The notes under the pieces are model-generated. The model saw nothing but the letters and a program-made list of their open reading frames with translations. It was not told where the DNA came from and searched no databases. A program made the position numbers and the translations under genes. A DNA stretch of 32,529 nt, from NCBI RefSeq assembly GCF_009649845.1, contig NZ_WJIE01000034.1, positions 1 through 32,529 of the forward strand, given 5' to 3'. The DNA is from Polyangium spumosum (GTDB lineage Bacteria; Myxococcota_A; Polyangia; Polyangiales; Polyangiaceae). Positions 9,015 to 32,529 of the stretch are shown here, in pieces (the first letter of the stretch is position 1; each line of letters starts with the position of its first letter).

Positions 9015-11476
9015 GCCTCTTCTCGCATGGATCGCTCGCGGGGGCGCGGCGCTCCGGGACGCCGGCGATGGACACGGACCACGATCGCCATCAGTATCAC
9101 GCAGGCGCCTGCTTCATTCCCCGCGGGAGTGGTCGTCCTGCAGGCACACCCCGGGGGCATGCCGTCCTTCGCCGTACGAACACACGTGTTCATATCCGTG
9201 CACGCCGCTTCAACTACACAATCTTCATTGGTAGTGCATTTGTCCAGGCACTGTCCGGCGTCGCCGCACCGGTAGTTGCCGCAGGGGATGGCGACCCCGT
9301 CTCTGATAGCGTGATCGTCCTTGCAGATTGGAGGAGCCGGGATACACGTCGCGGCCCCGCTGCACACGTGGTCGGGCATGCAATCGGAGTCGGTTTCGCA
9401 GGAATTGGCGCATTCCCCGGAGGGCAGGCACAAGTAGGCATTGCAAGGGTGTTTCGCGACGGGGCTGCAGGTGCCGTCGGGCAGACCGGTCTTCGCCTCG
9501 GAGCAACCGTTGCAGATCCCTTTGCAGGCCGCCTTGCAGCAAACGTCATCGACGCAATGACCGGAGAGGCACTCTCCCCCCGAGATGCACGGCATACCAT
9601 TGGACGCCGCTAACCAGCGCTCGGCGCCGCCCGTGGTTTTGCTCGAAGCGTTTCCCCCCACGACCAGGACGCTCCCGTCGTCGAGCAGCGTCGCCAGGTG
9701 ACTCTCGCGCGGGTCGACGAGGCTGCCGGTGAGGGACCAGGTCTTGCTGCTGGGATCGAAGAGTTCCACGGAGGACGACACGGAGTCCCCCAGTTGTCCG
9801 AATCCTCCCGTCACCATGACGAACCCGGTCGAGAGCTCGACGGCCGTGTGCTCGCGACGCGCATGATTCAGGCTCGGCAGCTCGGTGCAGCCAGGAGCGC
9901 CGCTCCCGAGGTTGCACGACTCGACGCTCGCGACACGACCATAAGAATCGCGTTGGCCGCCGATGACGAGGACGTCATCGCCATGCTGCCCAATCGACGC
10001 GTGCAGATAACGACCTGACACGAGATCTGGCCCGAGGGACCACACGCCGCTCGCCGGGTCGAAGATCTCGATCGCGGCTATCGATGCGCCGAGCGCGCCG
10101 TCATGGCCGCCAATGACGGCGACCCGCCCATCCGAGAGCCTCGTTGCCGTATGCCCGTCGCGCGCGTAGGTGAGGTCGCCGGCGTCCAGCCACGAGCCCG
10201 TCGCAGGGTCGAACAGGATCGTCTCTCGTACGTAGAGGGGCACGCCGCGGCCCCCGGCGACGAGTACGCGCCCATCCATCAACGAAACCGCGACGTGATC
10301 GGATCGCGGCGCGGGCATGGAGCTCTCGGACGTCCATGTGCCCGTTTGCCAGTCGTATCGTTCGACCGAAGATGTTTCGCCGAAATAATTCCGGGAGCCG
10401 CCCACCACGAGCACGTTGCCGTCCTGCAGACGTGTGGCCGTGTGCTTTTTTCTTGCGAGCCCCATGCTTTCGACGACGGCCCAGGTGCCGGAGCCAGGAT
10501 CGAAGACCTCCGCGCTCTCAAGATCGATCGTATCCAGATCACGGCCGCCGGCCACGAGCACCCGACCGTCCGGCAGCTTTGTCGCCGTCGCATGCATTCG
10601 CCAATGTGCCATGCTGGATGTCGCTATCCATGCCGGATCCACGAGCGCTGGATAGGATATCCCGCCTCCGGTCCAATCGACGGAGACGATACATACGCAC
10701 GCGTCCGATGGGCCGTCGGTCGTGCACGGCGACACGGGAGGGCGCCCCCAAGGCGGCGCGGGCGACTCGTCCACCCGACAGCCGTTCACCGACAGTGTCG
10801 CCGAAGCGGCGGCGACGCCCTCGGCTCGCGGAGACATATAGACGCGCGGCGGCGCAATGCGCAGCCGCGGTGCTCCGGAGGCGTCGAGAAATTCGAGGGT
10901 GTTTGCGACGAACCGTAGCCCCGCCACGCCATGAATTGCCACGCGGTACTCGAGCCTCTCCACGTCCGGCCGACGCTCGAAGAGGATCAGGTCCTCAGCC
11001 CGATCCTCGCGCACACCTTGAAAAATGGTCCCGTGACCGCCGAATGCTTCGGAGTAGACGAGCATCTTACCACCGCTGCGCGCCGGGACGTCGAACGCGC
11101 CGCTCAACCGGAAGGAGACGTCGAGCGACGCAGCACGGATGCGGGTCCACCCCGAGGCGAAGGCAGGCAGCTCCGTCTCGAGCGGGCATCGGCCCTCCTG
11201 GCAGCGAGGGGGTGCGAAGCGCGTCACGATACGCGAATCACCCACGCGTTCGAAGGGGCCTACGTCCGAGGATGTCGAAAAAGACGCCAGGGCGCCGCTC
11301 TGCGGAGGGAGCAATGCCCTGGCCGACGCCATCGCGGCCCGGGCTCCTTCGCTGGACGCAACCGTCGACGCCTCCTCGTCGTGTCGAGAGGGGTCCGCAT
11401 CGGTGGGCGCGCTCTGGCATCCGATCAGTCCGAGGACGAGCGCCAGAGCCCTGTGCAGCCATTGCCCCGCGTTCAT
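9011..11476 (-). CDS. Kelch-repeat lipoprotein with Cys-rich tail and MYXO-CTERM-like anchor (paralogue 2)
   Basis: This paralogue has 821 residues. Signal peptide LVLGLIGC gives a lipobox Cys20. A Ser/Ala/Glu-rich linker precedes the shared domain (GLRFVANTLEFLDASGAPRL, APPWGRPPV, YPALVDPAW). Seven Kelch strands follow (VLVAGG, VLVVGG, VLVAGG, VAVIGG, VLVIGG, VMVTGG, VLVVGG). The Cys-rich part reads CISGGECLSGHCVDDVCCK onward. The C-terminus is GCACR, a hydrophobic helix and RVHRRRPGAPRPRE, the closest to a classical MYXO-CTERM Arg-rich end in this set. The start shares one base with the previous stop (TGATG) and the stop overlaps the next start by 4 bp, so ribosomes probably reinitiate along the array. 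Function beyond surface binding cannot be deduced. Confidence 0.85.
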   Translation of the reverse strand: MNAGQWLHRALALVLGLIGCQSAPTDADPSRHDEEASTVASSEGARAAMASARALLPPQSGALASFSTSSDVGPFERVGDSRIVTRFAPPRCQEGRCPLETELPAFASGWTRIRAASLDVSFRLSGAFDVPARSGGKMLVYSEAFGGHGTIFQGVREDRAEDLILFERRPDVERLEYRVAIHGVAGLRFVANTLEFLDASGAPRLRIAPPRVYMSPRAEGVAAASATLSVNGCRVDESPAPPWGRPPVSPCTTDGPSDACVCIVSVDWTGGGISYPALVDPAWIATSSMAHWRMHATATKLPDGRVLVAGGRDLDTIDLESAEVFDPGSGTWAVVESMGLARKKHTATRLQDGNVLVVGGSRNYFGETSSVERYDWQTGTWTSESSMPAPRSDHVAVSLMDGRVLVAGGRGVPLYVRETILFDPATGSWLDAGDLTYARDGHTATRLSDGRVAVIGGHDGALGASIAAIEIFDPASGVWSLGPDLVSGRYLHASIGQHGDDVLVIGGQRDSYGRVASVESCNLGSGAPGCTELPSLNHARREHTAVELSTGFVMVTGGFGQLGDSVSSSVELFDPSSKTWSLTGSLVDPRESHLATLLDDGSVLVVGGNASSKTTGGAERWLAASNGMPCISGGECLSGHCVDDVCCKAACKGICNGCSEAKTGLPDGTCSPVAKHPCNAYLCLPSGECANSCETDSDCMPDHVCSGAATCIPAPPICKDDHAIRDGVAIPCGNYRCGDAGQCLDKCTTNEDCVVEAACTDMNTCVRTAKDGMPPGCACRTTTPAGNEAGACVILMAIVVRVHRRRPGAPRPRERSMREEA

Positions 11477-14019
11477 CAGCGGGGGCTCCTCTTCGCCATA
11501 TCACGCAACTCTCGCGATCGGCGCCAATGCATGACGATCACCGTCAACACAGTGGCGATTATCGGGAGGACCGGGGTCTTCGAGGAGGCGCCGCCGACCT
11601 TGCACCCGCACCCGGCAGGAGCCTCGACCGCCGCTGATATGGAGGCGCAATTGCCTCCTGCGGTGCAGGAAGCGCCTTTCGCGCAATCGTCATTGAGTTC
11701 GCAAACGCTCACGCACGCTCCGGCGTCACAGGAAAACGGGAAACAATCCTCGGGTGGCGTATCGTCGTTTGCCTGCTTCTTTATGTGGTCGACACAATAC
11801 CATTCACCGGCCGCCGTGCACAGGCCGCTCTGCTCGTTGCAGGCAAACCCTGTCGCGCAGTCGTCGTCCGCCGCACAGCTCGACTTGCACGATCCTCCTT
11901 CGGACAGATCCTGGCATTCGAATGGTGCACAGGGGGATCCAGGGACGTTCCCGCAAACACCGTCTAGGCCGCCCCCCTTGTCGGCGTTGGTACAGGCATA
12001 ACAGGGCCCGCTGCAGGGTTGGTCGCAGCAGACACCCGCTGCGCAGAGCCCGGACTCGCAAGCGCCCGATACCAGGCAGGGGCTGCCGCCTGGGAGCAAC
12101 GTGAAGAGCTCCGCGCTGGCAAGGTCGTTCGGTCCGTCGTTGCCGCCGGCCACCAGCACCTTGCCTGTCGCGAGCGTCGATGCGGCGTGCCACGAGCGGA
12201 GCCCGGACATGTTGCCGGCGTCGAGCCAGGCCGCGGCGCCGGGGAGCAATACCTCGGTACTGGCCAGGCGACCGTTCGCGTTGGCCCCCCCTGCGACGAG
12301 CACGCCCCCGCCCGTCATGCGGGATGCCGTGTGCGAGCGCCGCGACGACAGCATTGTCGGCCCTTGGATCCATTGGTTCTTCTCTTTCGGCAGCACCTCG
12401 CATGTCGCGAGGACCACATCGTCCGGTCCGAAGCCGCCGCAAACGAGGATGGATTCGTCCGGAAGAAGGACTGCCGTGTGCATCTTCCGTGCTTCCCCGA
12501 GGGAGGGAAGAGGCGACCACTGGCCCGTGTCGGGGTCGTATTGCTCCACGGAGGCATGCGCGGATCCGTCGTTGCTCGCTCCACCGACGACGACGACTCG
12601 ACCTTCAGGCGTCAGAGTGGCCGTGTGGTATTTGCGAGCCGCGCCCATGGGGGGCGCCTGTTGCCATGATTCGGTGACCGGATCGAAAATACGAACGTTC
12701 GTCGTGGCCGGGCCGACGGAATCGGCTCCGAAGGTCAAACCACCAGCAACGAGGACCCTGTCGTCGAGCATCCTCGTAGCCGACGACAGAAGCCTGAACG
12801 TCTGTATGGGAGCCGTATAGTCCCAACTATGGGTGATGGGATCGTACAGCTCGGCCGAGTTCGTTGTGTTGTTCGCATCGACTCGACCCGCGGCGACCAA
12901 CACTCTGCCATGAGGCAATGCGCTCACGGAGGCGTCATCACGTGGTTCGTTCATGGTGGGCCCCATCGACCACGTCTCGGTGGTAGGGTCGAAGATCTCG
13001 GTGGTTGCGCTGGCGGCGCTGGGCCCCTCCGGATTCCCGCCGATCACCATGATCCGGTTCTCCTGGAGAGGGCTCAAGGCGGGCCCGTTCCGGGCCTCGG
13101 CCATGCTTTTCGTCGACGACCATGCCGGATCGAGCAAAGCTGGATACACGACGCCACGACCCTCCCACGAGACGCGAACTTCGCAGCGGCACGCGTCCAT
13201 GGATTCCCGCGCCGCCTGCAGGCCCCTCGAACAGGGAGGAATGGGAGGCCGGCCCCAGGGTGGGGCGGGCGACCTATCCACGACGCAGTCACCCCCGTGA
13301 TCTCCAGGTACGACTTCGAGCTGCGCATACACGATTTCACCGCGAGCGTCGAGGAGCCAAGGCCTCTTCACTCTCAACCGCGGGGCGCCTCCCGGATCGA
13401 GGAACTCCAGCACGTCACCTACCAGGCGCATTCCAGCGACGGAGGTGACGTCGATCTCGTAGCGAATGGCCTCCGTGATCGGCGCGCGCTCGAATGCTAC
13501 GAAGTCCTCGATTGCATCCGGACGAACCACGTGGAGCACGTCGAACACACCGCCGAGCGCGCCGCGGAACAGCAGAGCGTTCCGGGCCGCTTCGAGCTGC
13601 ACGGGCCTGCTTTCGAGGAGCGCAAAGCGAATAGCGAGCCCCGAGGCGACGTCCTCGAGGAGCACCTCGCCGGACGCGTGGACCGGGACATGGACGCGTG
13701 CTTGCAGCAAACGCGCACCAGCAACTTCGACCTGGAAATGACCATCCCCCGCCGGCGTGAGGGACATCTCCCGAGCAGCCTGGAACGGGCGTCGGCGATG
13801 GCCGAGGTTTTCTCGGGAGTCATGCGCCACGAGCGAGAACCGCTCGTCGAGGGCGCGTATCTGGAGCTCGGCCAATGCCTCATGATTCATCGCTTGGCTC
13901 GGGCTCTCCCCGTAGACGCCCTCCGTTTCCGCCGTCTCCCGACCGGAGCAGCCGAGGAGGCAGGACGCGACGACCATCTCGTAGAGCATGCGCCGAAAAA
14001 AGAACGTGGAGCCGCCCAT
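11476..14019 (-). CDS. Kelch-repeat lipoprotein with Cys-rich tail and MYXO-CTERM-like anchor (paralogue 1, first of the array)
   Basis: This is the longest paralogue (847 residues). Lipobox CLLGC gives Cys24; internal Met11 or Met15 could also begin a lipoprotein signal. The shared N-terminal domain (GMRLVGDVLEFLDPGGAPRL, APPWGRPPI, YPALLDPAW) is followed by seven Kelch strands (IMVIGG, VLVAAG, VLVAGG, VVVVGG, ILVCGG, VLVAGG, VLVAGG). The second blade has Ala in place of the first Gly. The Cys-rich block (CLVSGACESGLCAAGVCCDQ) is followed by AGCGCK, a hydrophobic helix (PVLPIIATVLTVIVM) and a basic tail. A 64-bp gap separates it from the TPR/PEGA gene upstream, the largest spacing within the 18.4-4.1 kb operon. 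A promoter there was not evident. Confidence 0.85.
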   Translation of the reverse strand: MGGSTFFFRRMLYEMVVASCLLGCSGRETAETEGVYGESPSQAMNHEALAELQIRALDERFSLVAHDSRENLGHRRRPFQAAREMSLTPAGDGHFQVEVAGARLLQARVHVPVHASGEVLLEDVASGLAIRFALLESRPVQLEAARNALLFRGALGGVFDVLHVVRPDAIEDFVAFERAPITEAIRYEIDVTSVAGMRLVGDVLEFLDPGGAPRLRVKRPWLLDARGEIVYAQLEVVPGDHGGDCVVDRSPAPPWGRPPIPPCSRGLQAARESMDACRCEVRVSWEGRGVVYPALLDPAWSSTKSMAEARNGPALSPLQENRIMVIGGNPEGPSAASATTEIFDPTTETWSMGPTMNEPRDDASVSALPHGRVLVAAGRVDANNTTNSAELYDPITHSWDYTAPIQTFRLLSSATRMLDDRVLVAGGLTFGADSVGPATTNVRIFDPVTESWQQAPPMGAARKYHTATLTPEGRVVVVGGASNDGSAHASVEQYDPDTGQWSPLPSLGEARKMHTAVLLPDESILVCGGFGPDDVVLATCEVLPKEKNQWIQGPTMLSSRRSHTASRMTGGGVLVAGGANANGRLASTEVLLPGAAAWLDAGNMSGLRSWHAASTLATGKVLVAGGNDGPNDLASAELFTLLPGGSPCLVSGACESGLCAAGVCCDQPCSGPCYACTNADKGGGLDGVCGNVPGSPCAPFECQDLSEGGSCKSSCAADDDCATGFACNEQSGLCTAAGEWYCVDHIKKQANDDTPPEDCFPFSCDAGACVSVCELNDDCAKGASCTAGGNCASISAAVEAPAGCGCKVGGASSKTPVLPIIATVLTVIVMHWRRSRELRDMAKRSPR

Positions 14020-18526: not shown

Positions 18527-20602
18527 TTAAGGGATGCACTTCCTCTTGACGGACACCGTATTGGTGGCACGCCATGACTGGAAGCCTCCCTCGTCCTTGC
18601 CGACCCAGAACTGCTTGGTCTCGTTGAGCGCCCACGCTGCGCCGTAGGGATCGACCGTGAGATCGATCTTCTGCTCGGTGGAGCCGGTGACGATGGGAAC
18701 GCTGGTCTTGATGACGTTCGGTGGATTCGGACACGTGGGGCCGGTCCCGACGTAGAGGGTGAGCGTACCCGGCGTGCTGAACGACGAGTCGTCGGCCTTG
18801 CGAACATAGACGCGCAAAACCGTGGGCTGGATCATCGCGGCGGACGCCTTGAGCTTGAGCGTCCCGTCCCCCGAGCACCCGACGGGCCCGAAGTTCGGGT
18901 ACACGTAATCGACGACCTCGAATCGCCCCGAGTTCCCCGAAGGGCATCCACATCCCGGGCCGATGCAAATCTGGCCGTTCTTGCACGTATCGATGGTCGC
19001 GAGCTCGTAACAAGCGTCCGGATCGTAGTTGCCGCAGCTCTGAACCACGCCGTTCGAGCACGTCGTCGTCCCGGGCGTGCATTGGTTCGAGCAGCAGCCG
19101 CTGCTACTGTAGCCGGTACATGTTCCGTTGCACGCGAGTGTGCCGTTGTCGTACCCCTGGCCCTGGCAGGTGGCCCCCCCGAGATCGAAGCCGTCGCAGA
19201 CCTCCGAGCCCTCCTTGACCCCATTGTTACACTGCTGCGTGGCGCAGGCGTTGCCTACACACGGACAGGTGGTGAGGGCTCCCCACTCCATGCAAGTATC
19301 CGCGTCGTAGTTGCCACACGTCTGTTGCGCGTCGCTGTTCGCGCATTGCGTGGCCCCAGCCACGCACTCATTGTTGCAGCAGCCGCTCGTGTTCAACGAG
19401 CAGTCCGCATGGCACGAGAGCGTGCCGCTCTGGTAGCCCAGCGATCCGCATGTCTTGCCCTTGAAATCGTTGCCGTCGCACGCCTCCTCCGGAGCCGCGG
19501 TTCCATCACCGCACGACGAGCCGGGTACGCAGATGCCGCCTTGACAGCCAGCGCCCGTGGGGCACCCGCAGTCCTTGCAGCAGCTCGACTGCGTCTCCCC
19601 GTTGCCACATACGCCGTCTCCGCACCCGCCGACGCCCTTGTAGGTGAGGTTTTGGACGGCGGTCCCACCCATGGAGTATTGCGCGACGAATTCGTAGCTC
19701 ATGGTGGCGGTCCCCGAGTTGCCCCAGCCGGTGCCCCACGAATTCACGAACGTGAACCGCTGGGCCGCGTCGTCATAGGAGACCACCGTGATCGCGTGGT
19801 TGCTGTCAGGCTCACCGGCTGCGCCTTCTCCTGACACATCGAAATCCTCCCAATCGTCCCAGAATACCGGGACCCCGATCACGGGGGCCCAGCCCTGAAC
19901 GATGGCGTACTTCAGCTCGTTCACGCTCTTCGGAGATACAGTGACGAACTCACCGATGTACGCGACGCCGGCGGACAAGAGGACGTCCGCGGAAGGGACT
20001 GCATCGAGCGACGACTCCGGGTTCCAGGGATCGTAGAGCCATGTGGATGCTGGGACGACATGCGCTCCAGCTTCCTGGTTCTCGTAAAAAATATGATGAA
20101 TGGACGACCCCTGGATGCAGTCGTCGGAGCCGTAGCCCGCGATATGCCAGATGTGCGCGGGGCTGAAGTCGACGAACTCCGAAGCTTGGGTCACCGCACG
20201 GATCCCCATTGCACTCCGCGTGGCGAACGCTGCGCACGATCCGCAGCTCCCCTGATTCGGAACGGTGAAGCCATCGAGTTTCAGACTGGCGCTCGCAGGA
20301 AGGGGACCCGGGGGCGCCGGTACCGTGCCCAAGAGGATCTCCCCCTCCGATGGTCCGGGATTGCTCTCTTGCAGGCAGATGACTTGTCCACCGCCAATAT
20401 CACGACATCTCGTGGACCCCGGCGAGCCGCCGGATCCACCCGAGGGATTGGGCGTCTCTGTATCGTCCGTGCACGCGCCGTCGATGCAGAGGCGGTTCCC
20501 CTTGCAATCCGTATCCTTGGAGCAGTCCGGGTTGTCACAAGCGGCGCTCCAGATAACGAGCCCGAGCAGGAGGCTGCCCGTCGCGAGAGCTGTCTTTTGC
20601 AT
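18527..20602 (-). CDS. Papain-like (C1A) cysteine protease lipoprotein with myxobacterial Cys-rich repeats
   Basis: The start at 20602 gives 691 residues and a clear lipoprotein signal (LGLVIWSAAC, Cys22). A GAGGAG-like Shine-Dalgarno lies about 12 nt upstream. A longer open frame to 20965 exists only because an upstream 11-bp repeat lacks stops. The peptidase motif NQGSCGSCAAFA (residues 116-127) places catalytic Cys123, with Ala replacing the usual following Trp. His269 lies in NHAITVVSYDD and Asn287 in NSWGTGWG. No obvious inhibitory propeptide precedes the domain, only about 90 low-complexity residues. After about residue 325 come Cys-rich modules of the DUF4215-like type (CDGNDFKGKTCGSLGYQSGT and CDGFDLGGATCQGQGYDNGT), then a C-terminal beta-rich domain. 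A secreted or surface protease is expected; its target is unknown. Confidence 0.88.
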   Translation of the reverse strand: MQKTALATGSLLLGLVIWSAACDNPDCSKDTDCKGNRLCIDGACTDDTETPNPSGGSGGSPGSTRCRDIGGGQVICLQESNPGPSEGEILLGTVPAPPGPLPASASLKLDGFTVPNQGSCGSCAAFATRSAMGIRAVTQASEFVDFSPAHIWHIAGYGSDDCIQGSSIHHIFYENQEAGAHVVPASTWLYDPWNPESSLDAVPSADVLLSAGVAYIGEFVTVSPKSVNELKYAIVQGWAPVIGVPVFWDDWEDFDVSGEGAAGEPDSNHAITVVSYDDAAQRFTFVNSWGTGWGNSGTATMSYEFVAQYSMGGTAVQNLTYKGVGGCGDGVCGNGETQSSCCKDCGCPTGAGCQGGICVPGSSCGDGTAAPEEACDGNDFKGKTCGSLGYQSGTLSCHADCSLNTSGCCNNECVAGATQCANSDAQQTCGNYDADTCMEWGALTTCPCVGNACATQQCNNGVKEGSEVCDGFDLGGATCQGQGYDNGTLACNGTCTGYSSSGCCSNQCTPGTTTCSNGVVQSCGNYDPDACYELATIDTCKNGQICIGPGCGCPSGNSGRFEVVDYVYPNFGPVGCSGDGTLKLKASAAMIQPTVLRVYVRKADDSSFSTPGTLTLYVGTGPTCPNPPNVIKTSVPIVTGSTEQKIDLTVDPYGAAWALNETKQFWVGKDEGGFQSWRATNTVSVKRKCIP

Positions 20603-20809
20603 GGTCCTCGCTCCTCGATGAAAGAGAGTTGTGGATGGTCTCCGCTCATGCCTTCCGTGCAATACCGGAGCTCGAAGGCGACCCGTCGAGAGGCAGGAAC
20701 GAGCACGGGCGGGATTGCAAGAGCCGGGCCGTTCGGCACGTGCCTCTGCCGCGTGCTCCAGCGCGTGATCGGGCACGAACCAGAGCGGTGCTTCGACGAT
20801 CGAAGAGCG
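20603..20809 (-). promoter_or_regulatory. Leader and promoter region of the protease gene
   Basis: This non-coding stretch of about 207 bp lies between the 11-bp repeat array and the protease ATG. It contains the sigma54-like promoter at 20716-20731 and an untranslated leader of roughly 100 nt. A protein-like reading continues through it on the minus strand, but it has no plausible start or domain. It is judged non-coding. Confidence 0.55.
20716..20731 (-). promoter_or_regulatory. Candidate sigma54 (-24/-12) promoter for the protease gene
   Basis: On the minus strand the sequence is CGGCCCGGCTCTTGCA. Compared with TGGCAC-N5-TTGCA, it has the GG and GC dinucleotides at exact spacing, a perfect TTGCA, and mismatches only at the first T and the A of the -24 box. 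The predicted start is about 20705, roughly 100 nt before the ATG at 20602. The gene immediately upstream encodes a sigma54-dependent activator, which strengthens the call. Confidence 0.6.
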
Positions 20810-20919
20810 TCGATGTCCAGTCGATGTCCAGTCGACGTCCAGTCGACGTCCAGTCGATGTCCAGTCGACGTCCAGTCGACGTCCAGTCGACGTCCAGTCG
20901 ACGTCCAGTCGATGTCCGG
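20810..20919 (-). repeat. Ten tandem 11-bp repeats between activator and sigma54 promoter (candidate enhancer iterons)
   Basis: Ten contiguous units of TCGAYGTCCAG (plus strand; Y is T or C, last unit ends CCGG) begin at 20810 and end at 20919, next to the activator stop codon at 20920-20922. The only variable position is C or T, apart from the last unit. The array starts about 80 bp upstream of the sigma54-like -24 box. The 11-bp period is close to one DNA helical turn, so bound proteins would line up on one face. Enhancer function is inferred from position and periodicity. Confidence 0.75.
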
Positions 20920-22404
20920 CTAATGCCCCGAGCGAGCGCGCGGCAAACCCAGCACGTCCATCCACCGCGCGAGCTGGCGCTCGTGCACGCCGAGCAACCG
21001 CGCGGCGTCCCGCTGGATTCCGCCGGCTCTCTCCAGGACGGCAACCAGCTGCTCCCGGCTGGGGCAGCGGTGCTTCCCGGAGGACGTGGGCGGCGGGCGG
21101 GTTGCGGGCACGGGGCCGGCCAAAGGATCTTGCAGATCCCCTGTCATCGTGACGGGCAGGTGGGGCGTATCCATCGGATGACCATCCGCGAGAACGGCGA
21201 TGCGGACGAGCACGCGTTCGAGCTCCCGGACGTTCCCTTCGAGGGGCCCGCCGAAGAGGATACGGGCGGCGGCTCTCGTTATCGACGCTTTTGAGACAGC
21301 CGCTTTTTCGAGAATGTGCGACGTCAAAATACCCAAGTCCTCACGCCTGCGGCGGAGCGGCGGCAAGATGGCGGTATACCCAGCCAACCGCTCCCGGAGG
21401 TCGGCCCGGAATCGTGCCTCTTTCGCAAAAAGGTCGGTGTTCGTCGCGGCGATCCATCTCACGTCGACTCGGACACCTTTGTCGGCGCCCACGGGGATGA
21501 CCTCGCGGTCCTGAACGACGCGAAGCAGCCGTGCCTGCGCCGACTCGGACATGTTACCGATCTCATCGAGGAACAAGGTCCCACCCTCGGCGCTCCGAAG
21601 CCGCCCCTGGCGCTCCTCGGTTGCGCCGGTGAAGGCTCCGCGACGGTGACCGAAGAGCTCCGACTCGACGAGATGCTCTGGGATGGCACCGCAGTCCACG
21701 GCCACGAAGGGACCAGAGCGCCCGCTCTTGTCGTGCACGTATCGCGCGGCGACCTCCTTGCCGGTGCCGGTTTCCCCTAGGAGCAGGATTGGCTGCCGGG
21801 TGCCGGCGACCTGCTCGAGCTCCATGGCGATACGCGCGAACTCGGGCGACAGCGTCCGGGTCGGTCCCAGGCAGGCCGCCTGCTGCAGCGCCAGCCGCGC
21901 ATCGATCCGACGATAGCAGAGGAACGAGTGCCCCACCTCGAGCCAATCACCATCGTGCAAAACACGTTCCTCGCCGGGAGCAAGGCGCTCGCCGCTGACG
22001 AGCGTGCCGTGCTTGCTGCCGAGGTCTCTGACGATGTCGACCACGCCGCGGCGCTCGATCAGGGCATGCCGACCCGATACGTAGCGATCAGGGATCAGGA
22101 CCGCGCCCTCGGCGAACCGCGGAGGGGTTTCGCCCGAAGTGCGCCTGATCTCCAGTGACTGCACATTGGGGCCGAGTGCGGGCATTGCCGATGATGCGCA
22201 CGCGAGCAGATCGTCGTAGCCAAGAACATAGGTCAAGACGCCGGCAGGCTTGAGGTCGGCGAGCTCCGCGTCCTCGCTGAGGGTATCTTCCACGTTTCTC
22301 GTCGAACCGTAGCGCCAATTCCCGGCTGTTGGAAGCTGATGAAGGTGCGAGGACCCCGAGGAGATCCGTGACGGGGATCGCCTCCGTTCAGTACGCTTGC
22401 CCAC
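20920..22404 (-). CDS. FHA-domain sigma54-dependent transcriptional activator (bEBP), Fis-type DNA-binding domain
   Basis: Numbered from the ATG at 22404, the protein has 494 residues. An FHA domain lies at about 85-165 (IPDRYVSGRHALI, LGSKHGTLVSGERL). An AAA+ sigma54-interaction domain lies at about 182-405, with Walker A GETGTGKE (210-217), GAFTGA (256-261), Walker B GTLFLDE (275-281) and an ATNTDL motif. A Fis-type helix-turn-helix lies near 449-484. The family hydrolyses ATP to open sigma54 promoters, and the FHA part senses phospho-Thr, commonly from Ser/Thr kinases. A GTG at 22293 (starting VEDTLSEDAEL) is a more natural N-terminus, since the first 37 residues look non-conserved. An IS end at 22427 lies just upstream and may have altered its promoter. 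The likely target is the promoter at 20716-20731. Confidence 0.9.
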   Translation of the reverse strand: MGKRTERRRSPSRISSGSSHLHQLPTAGNWRYGSTRNVEDTLSEDAELADLKPAGVLTYVLGYDDLLACASSAMPALGPNVQSLEIRRTSGETPPRFAEGAVLIPDRYVSGRHALIERRGVVDIVRDLGSKHGTLVSGERLAPGEERVLHDGDWLEVGHSFLCYRRIDARLALQQAACLGPTRTLSPEFARIAMELEQVAGTRQPILLLGETGTGKEVAARYVHDKSGRSGPFVAVDCGAIPEHLVESELFGHRRGAFTGATEERQGRLRSAEGGTLFLDEIGNMSESAQARLLRVVQDREVIPVGADKGVRVDVRWIAATNTDLFAKEARFRADLRERLAGYTAILPPLRRRREDLGILTSHILEKAAVSKASITRAAARILFGGPLEGNVRELERVLVRIAVLADGHPMDTPHLPVTMTGDLQDPLAGPVPATRPPPTSSGKHRCPSREQLVAVLERAGGIQRDAARLLGVHERQLARWMDVLGLPRARSGH

Positions 22405-22426: not shown

Positions 22427-24202
22427 CTAGAGCGCCAACCCCTTCACTTCCCCTAAAGTTACGCGGCTTTGCGCATGCTCAGCCCCCCACCCCACCGTTG
22501 GATGGTCTCCAGGTTCAGCACGGCGCAGTGGCGCCTCAAGTCGAACAGGTTTTTGCGTAGGCCACGATAGCGGGCGCGAGGCCCCTGCTTGCGTGAGAGA
22601 TGGGCGAGTCGATGCTCGACGTGGACTCGCTGCCGGAGCGCTTCACGTCCCTTCGTCGTGCTGACGAGCTTACGGAATCGCTGCTGCTGTTGCTCGTCCG
22701 CGGCAATGTGCACGGTCCGTCCCGCGTCGTTGCTCGCGTTGGTGCAGCGTGATCGCAGCGAACACGCGCCGCAGATTCCCGGCTCGAACTCGACCGTCTG
22801 ACCGGGCACGAATCGCTGGGTCTGGCCCGCGGGACATGTGATCGTCCTGAGTTTGAAGTTTTTCTTGAAGTCGTCCTTGGAGAAGCGCTCGCCGTTGGCC
22901 GCTGTGCGCGGCTTGCAGAGGATTTGGGCTCCGGCTGCAGCCGCGCCTCGCACGAGCTCGCTGCCCACATACGCGCGGTCGATGTACACCTCGGCAATCT
23001 TCTCGTTCCTCGGGGAGCGTGAAAGATCCTCCGCGAGGGCTGCCGCCCCCTCGCCTTCGGGACGATTGGCCGGTGTCACAGAGGCCGCCAGGATCAATTC
23101 GGTGTCGAGGTCATTCGCGATGTGTTGCTTGTAGCCCTTGAATCGCTTGGATTTGCTCTTGCGCCCGTGGCGCATCTGCGGATCCTCGATCGACACGCGC
23201 CGATCTTTGGCGACGCCCTTACGAATGTGCGGCTTGCCGCCCCCCGGCGGATCCGGCTGGAGATCTTGCGCGCGGAGCTGCGCGATGCACTCGAATAGCT
23301 CCTTCAGCGGCGCCTCGTCCGCCGCGTCGCCGGCCTGCCTGCGAATCCACGCCTCGAGCGCGTCAATCTGCCGCGTGAGTTCGACGATTGCATCGGCCTT
23401 TTGCTCGGGGTCGAACCAGTCGATGTCCAGACCCGTCTTGATGCTCGGCGCCAGAAACGCCGGGGCTCCCGCGCACGCCGCGATTTCCTCCGCTTTCAGC
23501 TCGAGCAACACGGCCGCCCCGCGCAGGAGCTTGAAGGCCGCATGGCCGAGGAGGTTTATCGTGTCCTCGACGCGCCCCGCGCCTTCCAGGGGACGCGAAT
23601 CGATGGCCAGGCGCAGCGTCTTCGGCAGCTTTTTCCAGTCGAACTCCTGGGTCTTCTTGGCGAGCTCGATGCTGCGCTCGAGCAGCCGGAGATCCATGCC
23701 ATGCGCGCTCATCCGATCGCGAAACGCCTGCAAAGTGCTCTGCCCAAACGCCTGCGTTTCTGCGCCCAAGATGCCCAGCACGAGCTGCCAGCGCAGATCG
23801 ACGACCGTCAACTCGACCGCCTCGCGATCGGATACGCCGTGATACGCCTGCAATAGCAAGACCATCGCCAGCAAGGCCGGTGGCACAGGTAGCCTGCCTT
23901 CGCCGGTGTCGCGATACATGGCCGCGAGTTCGTCCTGGAAAGCGTCGTCGAACAACTCGAGGCGATGCTTGTAGAGAAACGCGAACAACTTCCGGTGGTT
24001 ACCCAGCCGGGCCAGGAGCATCTGCTCCCTACGGGTCGCGATAGAGCTCGGATTCCAGCGCGGAACGGGGGTCATCATGGACGTGCCTTCTCCGTTGGGC
24101 TGGGCGAGCCACAGAGAGTGGATCACGTCGGCGTGCGTTTGTCGATCCCCCTCGTGTAAGTGCGCGGAAGGATCGGGGAAGTTGAAGGGATCGGCGCTCT
24201 AG
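22427..24202 (-). mobile_element. Complete IS1182-like insertion sequence
   Basis: This 1776-bp element has terminal inverted repeats. The left end reads CTAGAGCGCCAACCCCTTCA, and the right end read inward is CTAGAGCGCCGATCCCTTCA. They continue with ACTTCCCC for roughly 27 bp in total with few mismatches. Both ends finish in CTAG, which may be the repeat terminus or a 4-bp palindromic target duplication; the partial copy at 1-122 also ends in CTAG. One transposase gene fills it. The left end is 22 bp from the farthest possible start of the sigma54 activator. Confidence 0.85.
22459..24126 (-). CDS. IS1182-family DDE transposase
   Basis: This 555-residue transposase has an N-terminal DUF772/InsH-type domain (about 35-125: LFDDAFQDELAAMYRDTGEG, VPPALLAMVLLLQAYHGVSD). 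The catalytic DDE domain has candidate residues in LAIDSRPLEGAG, EVYIDRAYVGSEL and VHVEHRLAHL. A CGACSLRSRC zinc-knuckle-like motif lies near 465, and the C-terminus is FDLRRHCAVLNLETIQ. The length is normal for the family and no frameshift is seen, so it may be active. Met17 (MMTPVPRW) is an alternative start. The nearly collinear C-terminus of another copy lies at 3-89. Confidence 0.9.
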   Translation of the reverse strand: MIHSLWLAQPNGEGTSMMTPVPRWNPSSIATRREQMLLARLGNHRKLFAFLYKHRLELFDDAFQDELAAMYRDTGEGRLPVPPALLAMVLLLQAYHGVSDREAVELTVVDLRWQLVLGILGAETQAFGQSTLQAFRDRMSAHGMDLRLLERSIELAKKTQEFDWKKLPKTLRLAIDSRPLEGAGRVEDTINLLGHAAFKLLRGAAVLLELKAEEIAACAGAPAFLAPSIKTGLDIDWFDPEQKADAIVELTRQIDALEAWIRRQAGDAADEAPLKELFECIAQLRAQDLQPDPPGGGKPHIRKGVAKDRRVSIEDPQMRHGRKSKSKRFKGYKQHIANDLDTELILAASVTPANRPEGEGAAALAEDLSRSPRNEKIAEVYIDRAYVGSELVRGAAAAGAQILCKPRTAANGERFSKDDFKKNFKLRTITCPAGQTQRFVPGQTVEFEPGICGACSLRSRCTNASNDAGRTVHIAADEQQQQRFRKLVSTTKGREALRQRVHVEHRLAHLSRKQGPRARYRGLRKNLFDLRRHCAVLNLETIQRWGGGLSMRKAA

Positions 24203-24342: not shown

Positions 24343-24543
24343 TCACTTCGAGGGAGGATTATTGCCCCGGCCGCCGCCGGAAGGCTTACCCGTGGTGCTC
24401 GGTGCGTTCGCTGGCCTGCCGCCGCCACCACCGCCACCACCCTTGCCACCGCCACCGCCACCGCCACCACCGCCACCGCCACCACCCTTACCACCACCAC
24501 CACCGCCCTTGCCTCCACCACCACCGCCACCTTTGCCGCTCAT
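24343..24543 (-). CDS. Small Gly/Lys low-complexity protein (66 aa)
   Basis: The start at 24543 is chosen because a perfect GGAGG (24549-24553) lies 5 nt upstream. The peptide begins MSGKG and is mostly uninterrupted Gly runs punctuated by single Lys residues, then a polar tail (RPANAPSTTGKPSGGGRGNN, ending PPSK). There is no signal peptide or membrane segment. Gly codons are mixed GGT/GGC/GGG, not one repeated triplet. An in-frame ATG at 24645 would add 34 residues and lies 6 bp after the upstream stop, so a 100-residue product is possible. The gene follows the STSQYGG-repeat gene on the same strand and is probably co-transcribed. The family is not recognised. A cationic, disordered partner or scaffold role is speculation. 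Confidence 0.6.
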   Translation of the reverse strand: MSGKGGGGGGGKGGGGGGKGGGGGGGGGGGGGGKGGGGGGGGRPANAPSTTGKPSGGGRGNNPPSK

Positions 24544-24651
24544 ATTTACCTCCACCTTTCGCCGTTCACTGCATTTGTTGATGAGAACCTTGGTGCCCTT
24601 ACGTCCTTGCCAAACCCAATCGCAGCCCAGCCCCGTCCGCTGCATCTGTTG

Positions 24652-25119
24652 TTAGCCCTTTGGGAAAAAGTTCTCTGGCCATAGAAACTCCGGCAAGTAT
24701 TGCCGGATCAGGACGGAGGCCCAGTCGTAGCCGCGTGCCTCCAACTCGCGGAGAAAATACGGCCACGGGGGGATATTGCTTCTGTAGACGTTGGTCGATG
24801 ACGTCGACATCCCACCACCCTCCAATGTCGAGAGCCCACCGTACTCTGACGTTGACAACCCACCGTACTGCGACTTCGACAGGCCGCCGTACTGAGAGGT
24901 GGAAAGGCCACCATACTGTGACGTTGACAAGCCCCCATATTGCGATGTGGACATGCCCCCATACTGCGACGTCGACAGTCCTCCGTACTGTGAGGTCGAA
25001 GCCCCACCATACTGTGAGGTGGACATTCCACCATACTGCGACGTCGATAGACCGCCGCCTTGGCTAGTTGAAAGATTCCGCGGCCACGTTCTGAGGTTTG
25101 GTATGTTGGGTCTTCCCAT
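24652..25119 (-). CDS. STSQYGG octad-repeat protein (155 aa), unknown function
   Basis: An AGGAGG Shine-Dalgarno (25125-25130) lies 5 nt before the ATG, so the start is secure. After a 15-residue leader come eleven 8-residue repeats of the type (L/M/A)STSQYGG (residues 16-103) and a degenerate twelfth. A non-repetitive aromatic/Pro tail of 44 residues follows (NIPPWPYFLRELEARGYDWA, then LIRQYLPEFLWPENFFPKG). The 24-bp DNA units differ at many third positions while the peptide stays constant, which indicates selection on the protein. There is no signal peptide, Cys or transmembrane segment. Regularly spaced Tyr among Gly/Ser/Gln resembles low-complexity, phase-separating domains. A multi-core RiPP precursor is another possibility, but no maturase is visible. 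It is upstream of and co-directional with the Gly/Lys gene. Confidence 0.75.
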   Translation of the reverse strand: MGRPNIPNLRTWPRNLSTSQGGGLSTSQYGGMSTSQYGGASTSQYGGLSTSQYGGMSTSQYGGLSTSQYGGLSTSQYGGLSKSQYGGLSTSEYGGLSTLEGGGMSTSSTNVYRSNIPPWPYFLRELEARGYDWASVLIRQYLPEFLWPENFFPKG

Positions 25120-25556
25120 GAGATCCTCCTATTGCCTACCTGCTAGCCACCCGTGAGGAGGGCTAACGTGGCGTTGAACTGCGGCCATCCTAAGCAAGCA
25201 CAGCGGCCGAAGAACGTTGTGCGCTGCGATGATGGCCGTCAGATCCAACGCCGAGTTGGGCAGTTCTCGTTTCATTCGTGATCACCAGCAGGTTCGCCCT
25301 CGTCCTGGTTGCTCTTGACCGGAGCCACACGACAGTGCCACAACTCACAAATAGAAGGCGTCTCACAACTTTCGCCCGGCTACAAGCAGAATCCAAAATT
25401 GTATGCGCTACCACGTTTGTTCCAGGGCTTCCCGCGGTCCCCCCGTCATTGACTGAAAGGTTGGACCTTTTCACACGGACGGCGTTACATGCTCGACGGC
25501 GTAGACCTGGGGCGCTCGGCCTGGTCCCCGACGGTGTAAACGTCGCGGCGCTCGGT

Positions 25557-25819: not shown

Positions 25820-26072
25820 CTCGGCGCGGTCGTGCTCGACGGCGCAGCCCTCGCGCGCCGCTCGGCGCACGCAAGCCCCCCGTGGGCGCTTCTGGCTTGT
25901 AGCCGTGAGGCTTGCGCCACAAGCCACTTGTGAGCACAAGCCCACAAGCCCCTCGTGAGCCACGCGGAACGCTTCCGCTTGACGGGCGCCCCCTCGCGCC
26001 GCTCGGCGCAGCCCTCGGGGCGCTCGGCGCGGTCGTGCTCGACAGCGCAGCCCTCGTCCCTCCGCCGTGGCG
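25820..26072 (+). repeat. 48-bp-family repeat, block A (sparse copies)
   Basis: These are the first copies of the repeat whose core is GTCGTGCTCGACGGCGCAGC followed by CCTCGCGGCG and CTCTCGACGCTCGGCGCG. In this block they occur at about 25820-25870 and 25985-26072. They are separated by a stretch with repeated CACAAGCC motifs (about 25888-25960). It is judged non-coding. Confidence 0.6.
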
Positions 26073-26271
26073 CAAGGGCCGTGTCTTGTAGGCGAACTAA
26101 TTGTCGGGCTTCTCGCGGCGCTTCGTTTCAAGGGGTTTGCTGCCGTTCGTTCGCCCGGAATTAATAAACACCCTAGACTAATTCAGTTCCCCGGATCCTT
26201 TTGACGGGCCTGATTTCGGGCACTTAGGCAACGAATTAGCACACAAAAACCTGAACTAATTACAAGCCCCT
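26052..26271 (+). repeat. A+T-richer spacer S1 (homologous to S2)
   Basis: This differs sharply in composition from the flanking repeats. It aligns along its length with 27284-27470 and shares the exact 17-mer ATTTCGGGCACTTAGGC at 26213-26229. It contains its own inverted repeat GAATTA/TAATTC (about 26158-26184). No gene was seen; a decayed mobile-element end or a regulatory element is possible. Confidence 0.5.
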
Positions 26272-26369
26272 TGACGGGGCAGCCCTCGGGGCGCTCGGCG
26301 CGGTCGTGCTCGACGGCGTAGCCCTCGGGGCGCTTGTCAAGGGGGACGTGCGCGGAGGGCTCGCGTTTC

Positions 26370-26432
26370 TTGTCACGTTGTCTCGGAGGGGCTTGTCTCG
26401 CGAGACACACGGACCCGAGACATGCGTGACAA
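26370..26432. repeat. Nested palindrome with four GTCTCG/CGAGAC half-sites
   Basis: Outer arms TTGTCACGTTGTCTCGG (26370-26386) and CCGAGACATGCGTGACAA (26415-26432) are inverted repeats with one inserted base. In the centre TGTCTCG/CGAGACA (26394-26407) is a perfect 14-bp palindrome. The four related half-sites suggest a multimeric binding site. Confidence 0.5.
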
Positions 26433-26863
26433 CACAACGGGGCAGCCCTCGGGGCAGCCCTCGCGGCGCGCTAGGCGGCCCTCTCGACGCTCGGCGCGAC
26501 CCTGGGAAGCTCGGCGCGGTCGTGCTCGACGGCGCAGCCCTCGCCGCGCTCTCGACGCTCGGCGCAGCCCTCGCGGCGCTCGGCGCGTCGTGCTCGACGG
26601 CGCAGCCCTCGGGGCGCTCTCGACGCTCGGCGCGATCATGCTCGACGGCGCGGCCCTCGGGGCGCTCTCGACGCTCGACGCGGTCGTGCTCGACGGCGCA
26701 GCCCTCGCGGCGCTCTCGACGCTCGGCGCGATCGTGCTCGACGGCGCGGCCCTCGCGGCGCTCGGCGCGGCCCTCCCCGGCTCCGTTTCTTCGCCGAAGA
26801 TACGCGGCCCTCGATCCACGCGTAACCACGCGAGATGTAGCCAGAAGGCCCGGGAACGGCGCG

Positions 26864-26886
26864 CTGTTCTCCGGTGCGGAGAACGG
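26864..26886. mobile_element. Minimal remnant of the MITE-like element (fused terminal ends)
   Basis: CTGTTCTCCG-GTG-CGGAGAACGG forms a perfect 8-bp stem. The same outer sequences bound the 330-bp element at 27911-28240, and the flanks on both sides match as well (GGCGCG before; GGGGGACGGCGC-like after). It is read as an internally deleted copy, or the ancestral state of the longer one. Confidence 0.45.
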
Positions 26887-27283
26887 GGGGGACGGCGCGG
26901 CCCTCGGGGCGTCATCGATGGTCGGCGCGCGCGCTCGACGCGGCGCAGCCCTCGCGACGCTCGGCGCGGTCGTGCTCGACGGCGCAGCCCTCGCGGCGCT
27001 CTCGACGCTCGGCGCGCGTGCTCGGTGCGATCATGCTCGACGGCGCGGCCCTCGGGGCATGCTCGACGCTCGGCGCGCGTGCTCGGCGCGGCGCAGCCCT
27101 CGCGACGCTCGGCGCGCGTGCTCGGCGCGACCATGCTCGACGGCGCGGCCCTCGCGGCGCTCTCGACGCTCGGCGCAGTCCTCGCGCGGCGCTCGTCACG
27201 TCGTGCTCGACGGTGCGGCCCTCGCGGCGATCTCGACGCTCGGCGCAGTCCTCGCGCGGCGCTCGGCGCGTCGTGCTCGACGG

Positions 27284-27504
27284 CGCAGCCCTCGTCCCCC
27301 GCCCCTACGCAAACGCGGTAATTTATAGGGAAACGATTCGTCTCATGCTCGGCGGACCTTGGTTTCAACGAGTTTTTGTGACGTTCGGTTGCCCGTGATT
27401 GATTCGCTTTCAACTAAACGAATCACCCGAAATTCTTTCAACAGGTCTCATTTCGGGCACTTAGGCCGTCTGATTGCATCGCCTCCCCCGAACGAATCGC
27501 GGCC
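27284..27504 (+). repeat. A+T-richer spacer S2 (homologous to S1)
   Basis: This aligns with 26052-26235 over roughly 185 bp at about 60-65% by eye, and shares the exact 17-mer at 27450-27466. It carries a different inverted repeat, GATTCG/CGAATC (about 27402-27425). Together with its neighbouring array it suggests duplication of a larger unit of about 1.2 kb. Confidence 0.5.
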
Positions 27505-27905
27505 ATCGCGGCGCGGCCCTCACGGCGCTCGGCGCGGCCCTGGGAGCTCGGCGCGGTCGTGCGCGACAGCGCAGCCCTCGCGGCGCTCTCGACGCTCGGC
27601 GCGGCCCTCGCAGCGATCGGCACGTCGTGCTCGACGGCGCAGCCCTCGCGGCGCTCTCGACGCTCGGCGCGGTCGTGCTCGACGGCGCAGCCCTCGCGGC
27701 GCTCTCGACGCTCCGCGCGGCCCTCGCAGCGATCGGCACGTCGTGCTCGACGGCGCGGCCCTCGCGGCGATCGGCACGTCGTGCTCGACGGCGCGGCCCT
27801 GGGAAGCTCGGCGCGTGCTCGACGGCGCAGCCCTCGCGGCGCTCGGCGCGGCCCGAAGCTCGGCGCGATCGTGCTCGACGGCGCAGCCCTGGAAAGCTCG
27901 GATCG
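27505..27905 (+). repeat. 48-bp-family repeat, block C
   Basis: This is a dense array of the same unit, including variants with GCGATCGGCACGTCGTGCTC inserted between cores (about 27610 and 27728, 118 bp apart). It is in the same orientation as blocks A, B and D. It ends exactly at the MITE-like element. Confidence 0.8.
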
Positions 27906-27910
27906 GCGCG

Positions 27911-28240
27911 CTGTTCTCCGGCGTGCGTGTTTCGCGCCATCGTGACCACCTGTTTCGCGGCGGCGTGACCAGTGATTTCGCCACCGTGACCACCCGTTTC
28001 GCGGCGATTGACCACCCCCCGCGGAGGGCCATCGTACTCGGGCGCGTCAAGGGTCGGCTCCGCCGAAATCCTAGCGGATTCGGGCCCTTGACCCGCCCTG
28101 CGTGCGATGAAGAAGGAGCGACTACGAGGGGCGCGCGGGGACGCGCGCCCCTCTCGTTCTCGGAGCCTGTGGAAAAGTGGTCAGCGAACGCGAAACGGGT
28201 GGTCAAACTTGGCGAAATACGCATCCGGCGCCGAGAACGG
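27911..28240. mobile_element. 330-bp MITE-like element with long terminal inverted repeats
   Basis: The ends begin CTGTTCTCCGGCG (27911) and, inverted, CCGTTCTCGGCG (ending 28240). Inside, both ends carry ATTTCGCCA, TGACCACCCGTTTCGC and TGACCAC blocks in the same order (left 27975-28016, right 28177-28218 inverted). The left end has extra tandem copies of the TGACCAC-TTTCGC motif. Multiple end repeats are typical of IS21-like termini, but no istA/istB reading is present, so it would be non-autonomous. The centre holds nested palindromes (28040-28098 and 28126-28153). Confidence 0.55.
28126..28153. repeat. 12-bp hairpin with GGGA tetraloop inside the MITE-like element
   Basis: GAGGGGCGCGCG (28126-28137) pairs perfectly with CGCGCGCCCCTC (28142-28153) across the loop GGGA, a GNRA-type tetraloop. 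Just to the left, GGGCGCGTCAAGGG (28040-28053) and CCCTTGACCCGCCC (28085-28098) form another inverted repeat with one mismatch. Confidence 0.5.
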
Positions 28241-28244
28241 GGGA

Positions 28245-28745
28245 CGGCGCAGCCTCGGGGCGAAACGCTCGGCCGAGTTATTACAGCCCCTCCGGAGCGA
28301 GTTATTACAAGTAAGACCCCCGCGCGTCACGCGGCGCGGCGCAGCCCTCGGGACGCTCGGCGCGACGCTTCGGCGCACGGCGCAGCCCTCGCGACAGTTC
28401 GTGTCATGGCACGAGATCGAACCCTGGCACGAACGCCCGCCGCTCGGCGCTCGGCGCAGTCCTCGCGCCGCTCGGCGCGCGCTCAGTGTGGCGCGTGCTC
28501 GACGGCGCAGCCCTCGCGGCGATCGGCGCAGCGATGCTCGACGGGGCAGCCCTCTCGACGATCGGCGCAGCCATGCTCGACGGCGCGGCCCTCGCGACGC
28601 TCGGCGCAGTCGTGCTCGACGGCGCAGCCCTGGGAAGCTCGGCGCGGTCGTGCTCGACGGCGCAGCCCTCGCGGCGTTCGGCGCGGTCGTGCTCGACGGC
28701 GCAGCCCTCGGGGCGTACTCGGCGCTCGGCGTGGTCGCTCGACGG
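28245..28745 (+). repeat. 48-bp-family repeat, block D
   Basis: This continues the array family after the MITE-like element. Copies are sparse up to about 28400 and dense from about 28495 to 28740. It ends about 90 bp before the GTG start at 28837 and is in the same orientation as A-C. Confidence 0.75.
28274..28309 (+). repeat. Pair of CGAGTTATTACA direct repeats
   Basis: Two exact 12-bp copies at 28274-28285 and 28298-28309 are spaced 24 bp start to start. This A+T-rich motif is unusual within the GC-rich array. It could be a protein-binding pair or a decayed element end. Confidence 0.4.
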
Positions 28746-31270: not shown

Positions 31271-31560
31271 TCAGAGCTGCGCCGAGCGTCGAGAGCGCCC
31301 CGGCGGCTGCGCCGTCGAGCACGACCGCGCCGAGCGCCCCGAGGGCTGCGCCGTGTGCCTCGCAATCGCCCCGAGCGTCAAGAGCACCCCGAGGGGTGCG
31401 CCGTGCGCCTCGCATCGCGCCGCGCGTCGAGAGCGCCCCGAGGGCCGCGACGTCGACCTCGACCGCGCCGAGCGCCCCGAGCGTCGAGAGCGCCCCCGAA
31501 GGCTGCCGTCCGCCCCGCGTCGCGTTGCCGCCGTTCGCCGCTCGTGATAAGCCATTGTTC
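31271..31560 (-). repeat. 48-bp-family repeat, block E, opposite orientation, plus short leader
   Basis: Directly after the TGA at 31268-31270 the repeat family resumes to about 31525, reverse-complemented relative to blocks A-D (GTCGAGCACGACCGCGCC on the plus strand). The remaining 35 bp before the ATG at 31561 carries no obvious Shine-Dalgarno sequence. Confidence 0.75.
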
Positions 31561-31836
31561 ATGAAAAGGATGCCGTATTATGTAATAATAATGCTCGCCA
31601 ACTATGGATGTGCGGCGTGGCTATTTTGGCGGGTCGCAAGTTACAAGGGGTATGGTTATTGGAGCGGTGTCACAAGGGGTTTCCTCACTGCCGGGGCCTT
31701 CCTTCCGCTAGGTCTGGGGGTCCTGACAATATGCTTGGGTTCGAGGGAGCGGGAGAGTTCGACCGGTCTGGTCCTGAGCCTCGCGCTCACCCTGCTGCTC
31801 GTCTTGCCTCTCCTGCTGCTGGCAGCGCATTGTTGA
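31561..31836 (+). CDS. Small membrane protein (91 aa), unknown function
   Basis: The ATG at 31561 begins MKRMPYYVIIMLANYGCAAW. Hydrophobic segments at about 7-24, 39-60 and 68-90 predict three transmembrane helices, with a short charged loop (GSRERESS) between the last two. A second ATG at 31570 is possible. The frame is open far upstream only because of repeat block E. No Pfam-like motif was recognised. It sits as an isolated island between two repeat blocks on the same strand as the two genes before it. Confidence 0.6.
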   Translation: MKRMPYYVIIMLANYGCAAWLFWRVASYKGYGYWSGVTRGFLTAGAFLPLGLGVLTICLGSRERESSTGLVLSLALTLLLVLPLLLLAAHC

Positions 31837-32529
31837 CAACAGAACGAGGCCACCAAGGCACGAAGCGTAGTTTTTCGGCTGGTATTCGTACCGTGTCACA
31901 GAGCAGGCGTAGGCGTGGCGGGACGCCGCTCGTGCGTTCACGCCGCGCCGGGCACCCCGAGGGCTGCACCGTGCGCCCGCATCGCGCCGAGCGTTATGAG
32001 TGCCCCGAGGGCTGCGCCGTCGAGCACGACCGCGCCGAGCGCCCCGAGGGCTGCGCCGTGCGCATCGCAATCGCCCCGAGCGTCGAAGCGACCCGAGGGC
32101 TGCGCCCGTCGAGCACGACCGCGCCGAGCGTCGAGAGCACCCCGAGGGCTGCGCCGTCGAGCACGACCGCGCCGAGCGTCGAGAGCACCCCGAGGGCTGC
32201 GCCCGTCGAGCACGACCGCGCCGCGCGTCGAGAGCACCCCGAGGGCTGCGCCGTCGAGCACGACCGCGCCGAGCGCGCGCCGAGCGTCGAGAGCGCCCCG
32301 AGGGCTGCGCCGTGCGCATCGCAATCGCCCCGAGCACCGAGAGCGCCCCGAGGGCTGCGCCCGTCGAGCACGACCGCGCCGAGTGTCGAGAGCGCGCCGA
32401 GCACCCCGAGGGCTGCGCCGTGCGCATCGCAATCGCCCCGAGCACCGAGAGCGCCCCGAGGGCTGCGCCCGTCGAGCACGACCGCGCCGAGTGTCGAGAG
32501 CGCGCCGAGCACCCCGAGGGCTGCGCCGT
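31837..32529 (-). repeat. 48-bp-family repeat, block F, opposite orientation, reaching the window edge
   Basis: The first 110 bp (31837-31947) is unique and has no gene. From about 31948 the array is dense and reverse-complemented relative to blocks A-D, and includes an added module CGCATCGCAATCGCCCCGAG. From 32296 to the end an exact 108-bp unit is repeated (32296-32403, 32404-32511, partial from 32512). Open frames run through it on all sides, as in block B, and are considered non-coding. Confidence 0.8.

Follow-up and report, generated by a model that had tools for sequence, protein, structure and literature searches.

An eleven-octad repeat protein in a probable decayed integron cassette of Polyangium spumosum and its relatives in distant bacteria

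The locus and its cassette-like context

The window, by which we mean the whole 32,529-nucleotide stretch of Polyangium spumosum DNA that was analysed, carries on its minus strand a gene for an octad-repeat protein of 155 residues (24652..25119), which is supported by the ORF list, the relatives, the octad count and the analysis of selection. The protein starts with an N-terminal cap (W12-P-R-N15), continues with 11 octads and a half, and ends in a C-terminal tail. The 11 octads, delimited by the octad count and the dN/dS comparison, span residues 16-103 (24811..25074, minus strand). All of them end in GG, a figure of 100% by construction since the octad is defined by this ending; seven of the 11 are exact STSQYGG units and nine contain Tyr. 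No signal peptide was seen on inspection by eye. A second ORF on the minus strand (24343..24543) encodes a poly-Gly/Lys product of 66 residues, largely from GGT/GGC repeats, and is located just past the decayed end of the octad cassette.

Integron cassettes are bounded by ends of known consensus, GTTRRRY-type on the leading and RYYYAAC-type on the trailing side. Complementary ends are present around the octad gene on the minus strand. The leading end GTTAGCCCT (25159..25167) begins 48 nt before the ATG and is the reverse complement of the trailing end AGGGCTAAC (24651..24659), an R''-like box that overlaps the stop codon of the gene. The window's GTTAGCC box differs from the consensus by one base. 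Directly before the cassette lies an attC-like site (25161..25261, minus strand), which would belong to the preceding cassette. The other strand of this stretch folds with unpaired stem bases (z -4.07), and none of 200 shuffles was as stable. No stable hairpin (z +0.77) forms in the stretch that follows the octad gene (24540..24660, minus strand), in which the attC of the octad cassette itself would be expected, so that this attC looks decayed or truncated and the cassette decayed rather than intact.

Ends matching over at least 9 nt were found at seven of 42 loci, two of which (L040 and L042) are identical, versus six of 1722 mismatched pairs; the remaining 35 loci have no matching ends of 9 nt. 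The P. spumosum genome (G000) contains no integron integrase over the TIGR02249 cut-off, and integron arrays without an integrase are known. An integrase is present in seven of 38 host genomes, including, among the six other end-matching loci, only that of L032. A strict attC scan gave one near match, that of the window, in 21.0 kb versus four in 538 kb, and a looser scan gave one in 12.7 kb versus 21 in 527 kb. When the surroundings of the loci were scanned at tighter settings, only the window's site lay near a gene, L055 being added at the loosest. We conclude that the octad gene in the window is a decayed integron gene cassette, and that it has several other carriers elsewhere.

The locus is adjoined by a DDE transposase gene (22459..24126, minus strand; DDE_Tnp_1 and DUF772 by Pfam). 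Pfam searches of four other window proteins returned a transposase and a sigma-54 regulator and no defence family, and Rfam found no match in the window. At the left end, a serine-recombinase-like ORF (131-1984) and a tyrosine-integrase-like ORF (2350-3930), both recognised by eye on the minus strand, suggest a mobile region. The window holds several further features. Four consecutive minus-strand ORFs of 808-847 residues fill positions 4103-14019 (4103-6601, 6588-9014, 9011-11476 and 11476-14019); by eye they are paralogue-like and show repeated motifs of the VLVAGG type and ends rich in Cys. An 11-bp tandem repeat GTCGACGTCCA (20809-20917; 9.9 copies, 95% matches) lies in frame close to the beginning of an ORF of 812 residues (18527-20965). 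GC-rich minisatellite-like arrays of GCTCGACGGCGCAGCCCTCG variants, both strands of which are free of stops in several frames, occupy positions 25991-28710 and 31279-32529.

Selection on the octads and the tail

The octad gene is real and conserved. A previous sequence-only reading of this DNA had assigned perfect Shine-Dalgarno sequences to both ORFs, and GGAGG-type sites read by eye are indeed present, AGGAGG 5' of the octad ORF and GGTGGAGGT before the poly-Gly ORF. The same reading proposed that the peptide of the 11 octads is kept while third codon positions drift, and the window gene agrees, with a mean pS of 0.78 and a mean pN of 0.15 over all octad pairs. The octads are thus near synonymous saturation with their peptide held, indicating that the repeat is old and kept by selection. 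The non-repetitive tail is also borne out, and it is strongly conserved among the relatives; the three closest pairs show dN/dS of 0.027, 0.069 and 0.028, in the range of 0.03-0.07 rather than near 1, as expected of a protein under purifying selection.

The number of octads is nearly fixed, with exactly 11 in 40 of 53 sequences and in both subfamilies (the phase of the octad script gives L079 one octad extra). The first residue of the octad follows a largely fixed order in the 39 distinct 11-octad proteins: Leu opens octads 7-11 in all 39, Met opens octad 3 in 35 and octad 6 in 34, and octad 4 starts with Ala in 23 and with Met in 16. Positions 4-5 are uniform inside each protein, reading SQ, AL, GP, LQ, SL or GA among proteins. 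Over octads 3-10, this uniformity reaches 0.904 versus 0.629 in column-shuffled sequences (largest 0.651), a comparison in which the relatedness of the proteins is not controlled. The A. junii protein (L077) has GP throughout octads 1-10, and the nearest tails, those of Acinetobacter proteins, go with SQ octads. The octads of L077 are more similar in DNA (pS 0.45), showing that local homogenisation does occur; the octad count and the Leu/Met order stay nonetheless.

We found no description of this family in our NCBIfam, PHROGs and literature searches. NCBIfam models gave a single weak match to the octad protein, far under the cut-off. PHROGs was searched with the octad protein (P0001), with P0002 and with the tail, Pfam with the tail, and the PDB sequences with the family profile, all with no match. 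Text searches of the literature for the octad, cap and tail strings returned no family description, only work on collagen-integrin binding and on enteric pathogens that its titles mark as unrelated; this is weak evidence, as sequence strings are rarely printed.

Spread, carriers and neighbours of the family

A single search through 84,980 species genomes recovered 39 relative loci, whose best segments are 54-93% identical. In 38 of them the match covers nearly the whole protein, and in L065 it comprises residues 1-82 only. The record titles name 12 phyla, including Pseudomonadota, Bacteroidota, Cyanobacteriota, Bacillota, Fusobacteriota, Acidobacteriota, Gemmatimonadota, Omnitrophota and Rifleibacteriota, although many of these records are metagenome bins, which may hold stray contigs. 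At the nucleotide level, L033 (Riflebacteria) and L049 (Paraburkholderia) are 87.5% identical across phyla. Among the sequences used, L064 includes consecutive N letters, both L065 and L083 are truncated, and L040 equals L042. Set A1 stands without L042, L064 and L065, and set A3 without L042, L058, L061, L064, L065 and L076.

Within the P. spumosum genome and 58 relatives, a full-length copy was found only in the window, the other hits being weak period-8 matches. An order-level relative has a frame of 3447 residues (G056:C1086:11589-21758), covered in part by L008, that is full of octad-like period-8 repeats. The octad gene was not found in E. coli genomes by blastn, nor the octad protein in 50,697 phage records by tblastn. 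With a Gram-positive relative as the query, three of 398 genomes in the class of G093 (Rossellomorea) matched at 1e-8, G093 itself included.

A more distant, shorter-tailed subfamily, with a MWxRNQ-type cap, LYTGPGGG, LSTGPGGG or LSTGAGGG octads and a SNIPPWPIFVKELEKRG-type tail, is carried by Firmicute plasmids, those of Weissella, Aerococcus, Enterococcus and Bacillus, and by contigs of a viral collection. On the Weissella plasmid pJY33 (2,365 bp), the two listed genes are the octad gene and a replication initiator, suggesting that no dedicated partner is needed for the octad gene to act. Two contigs of phage-like character also carry the octad gene: in L074 it is next to genes for head closure and tail sheath, and in L076 a tail-sheath gene is one ORF away. 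Two plasmids depart from the usual layout. In a Paenibacillus peoriae plasmid (L078, about 4961-5179), a single octad stands between a conserved cap and tail, in a stretch for which the collection's gene table, itself incomplete, lists no gene. On the Acinetobacter plasmid pAB1 (L080/L081), an octad-type tail survives as a fragment interrupted by stops, beside a LysR gene.

A tree of 51 rows, 15 of them without a phylum, requires 16 phylum changes for the 12 phyla, where 11 is the minimum possible. Shuffled labels gave a mean of 19.0 and were as low as 16 in one of 200 trials, so some phylum signal remains. The tail of L077 is closest to those of the Acinetobacter loci L041 and L047 (33 of 39 residues), and yet the tree puts L077 among other forms with GP octads, which shows how far the octads influence its grouping. 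On the larger scale, identities of about 70-90% connect the host of the window with cyanobacteria, Bacteroidota and candidate phyla. Such identity across very different bacteria, together with a near-fixed eleven-unit repeat, leads us to expect a useful role that does not depend on a fixed partner.

No recurrent partner was found. Clustering of the ORFs of at least 50 residues within 8 kb of 40 loci (blastp, 1e-6) yielded no family in more than three loci; the only cluster in three or more joins L046, L048 and L062, and its L048 member matches PDC-S45 at 1.2e-116. This clustering left the GajA (Gabija) genes of L033, L035 and L060 unjoined, so distant families escape it. In each of these three loci GajA is the next ORF of at least 90 residues downstream, and each best matches a different GajA model; GajB models were matched by three pooled neighbours. 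Single PADLOC scans identified PDC-S45 before L048, TIR/PDC-S35 before L051 and an AbiJ-like protein after L029, and 14 of the 20 neighbours scanned singly, which were picked after the pooled result, had no PADLOC match at 1e-8. Moreover, the A. junii plasmid copy is accompanied by a MspI-type enzyme and a reverse transcriptase.

In the pooled PADLOC comparison, 143 neighbours (alignment A2, 143 of 213 listed ORFs) matched 207 models and 134 control ORFs matched 57, many of the models in both counts being near-duplicates of one family. The controls were drawn from long contigs of these hosts, 17 stretches in all, and were not matched for mobile regions. Several of the models matched by neighbours were hit by 3-5 members, and the controls gave one member each among the 25 models listed. 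A genomic association of the octad gene with defence genes is thus found against controls not matched for mobile regions, and it can reflect plain shared mobility.

Predicted fold, possible function and known systems

AlphaFold2 gave a poor model of the window protein (pLDDT 61.7, pTM 0.41). For the relative L027, with an alignment of 41 rows, one of five models was confident (pLDDT 92.3, pTM 0.85), the other four reaching 38.8-55.7. In the confident model, the octads adopt neither helix nor strand, and helices are found at residues 119-128 and 132-141. From this single model, the octads are predicted to form a packed Gly-turn or polyproline-II-like bundle, and the octad proteins are probably small and well-folded. 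The predictor may have been misled by the perfect repeats, and the bundle stays a prediction. Foldseek searches of the L027 model in the PDB, and of the poor window model in the PDB and BFVD, returned no match at E 0.001 or better; a second comparison with VIA reached a best Z of 2.1 over 59 chains, a comparison that tests little. If the predicted fold is right, the family provides a well-defined natural case in which to ask why all octads of a repeat switch letters together while their number is kept.

We tentatively read the family as mobile, stand-alone cargo, whose most plausible role would be antiviral or counter-defensive. The gene would move horizontally on its own, in a cassette that has since decayed in the window and elsewhere on phage-like contigs, on plasmids and in the surroundings of defence systems. 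Behind the W-x-R-N cap, eleven Gly-turned octads would pack side by side, probably into one compact bundle and not into a disordered tail. The conserved SNIPPWP...RELE.RG motif would lie on a helical hairpin at the C-terminus. Such a rigid bundle could present the same residue pair, that of octad positions 4-5, on every octad, and thereby a regular face for a target, with the helical tail as the acting or docking part. We propose that the protein works on its own, its likeliest role being in anti-phage action or counter-defence; this role is an inference, as are the target and the part assigned to the tail. As a defence or counter-defence factor, the protein would be antiviral while lacking any evident enzyme domain. 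A more far-reaching version, which we consider possible but on the unlikely side, is a new fold and a single-gene immunity or counter-immunity factor in one: a compact eleven-octad bundle, neither helical nor beta, whose target-facing pair changes on all octads together (among SQ, AL, GP, LQ, SL and GA) while the octad count and the first-residue order stay nearly fixed, and whose gene travels on its own from phylum to phylum, with integrons, phages and plasmids as vehicles.

The sequence-only reading had instead taken the octad and Gly/Lys proteins for a sticker-and-partner pair able to condense or form fibres, and named a multi-core RiPP precursor as the alternative. The nine Tyr-bearing octads of the window protein, together with the Tyr that 23-35 of 39 proteins have at position 6 of octads 2-10, are in keeping with stickers. 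However, no comparable Gly-rich ORF (18 or more Gly in 30 residues) accompanies the octad gene in the 39 relative loci; the single frame that passes this test, in L064, is encoded on the opposite strand at a distance of about 4.2 kb from the octad gene. Aromatic residues are lacking from the octads of L064 (partly unread), L091 and L092, and are found in one of 11 octads of L084. The largely fixed octad count and first-residue order, and the compact, ordered structure predicted for L027 in one of five models, also speak against stickers and against conserved aromatics in a disordered region. A sticker-and-partner pair is therefore very unlikely, and the Gly/Lys ORF is probably a bystander. A RiPP precursor, which short repeated units after a conserved N-terminal part do resemble, is more improbable still: the conserved neighbours to be looked for under this reading (radical SAM, protease or ABC exporter) did not emerge, as the blastp clustering within 8 kb, which can miss distant families, gave no neighbour family in more than three of 40 loci, the NCBIfam matches include no RiPP model, and the tail behind the repeats is strongly conserved.

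The protein could also serve the mobile element rather than host defence, through superinfection exclusion, incompatibility, counter-defence or stabilisation. The 2.4-kb Weissella plasmid with only a replication initiator as the other listed gene, the further plasmids, phage-like contigs and cassette-like unit, and the want of a recurrent partner all suit such a role, but 50,697 phage records contain no match, and the majority of loci come from genome-assembly contigs that may be chromosomal or part of an element; we regard this reading as doubtful. A stress or ice-binding protein with a polyproline-II bundle, like the snow flea antifreeze protein, would be consistent with Gly-rich octads that form neither helix nor strand in the confident model and with cold-related host names such as Psychrobacter. 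On the other hand, hosts with no evident cold habitat and plasmids of kimchi, pig and human blood isolates carry the gene as well, and the PDB search returned no such match, which makes an ice-binding role a very remote prospect. Membership in the ALTTAQ repeat proteins (PF20080) is suggested by the match of the window protein at 46.8 bits, over the gathering score of 26.4, and by the similar period-8 repeats of the 3447-residue frame in G056. Yet PF20080 is absent from all six divergent-octad relatives (L051, L056, L077, L079, L082 and L084), in a scan of the relatives that took divergent-octad copies and none with STSQ octads, and hence the window match seems to follow the STSQ letters. Since the tail has no Pfam match and a 31-residue N-terminal piece with two octads gives only a sub-threshold Pfam match of 11.5 bits, such membership appears highly improbable.

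Compared with known systems, the window repeat resembles ALTTAQ in its period of 8, with Leu or Ala at position 1, Thr at 3 and Gln at 5, but the octad protein is capped and small with a near-fixed octad number, and none of the six relatives whose positions 4-5 carry other letters gave a match to that family. Polyproline-II bundle proteins, such as the snow flea antifreeze protein, are built from Gly-X-X triplets. The octad protein is likewise Gly-rich, with repeats that lack helix and strand in the confident L027 model; its octads are not such triplets, it has an added helical C-terminal part, and no structural match was returned. With integron cassettes of unknown function, the octad gene shares a single short ORF, an R''-like box at the stop codon, a complementary leading end and an attC-like site before it; unlike them, it is not followed by a recognisable attC of its own, no integrase in its genome passes the cut-off, and matching ends of 9 nt are missing from 35 of 42 loci. 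Single-gene cargo of defence islands is a further known kind. Unlike such cargo, the octad protein has no recognised enzymatic domain, and its defence role is a proposal; like it, the gene is patchily distributed, neighbours several defence systems, and is carried by phage-like contigs and plasmids.
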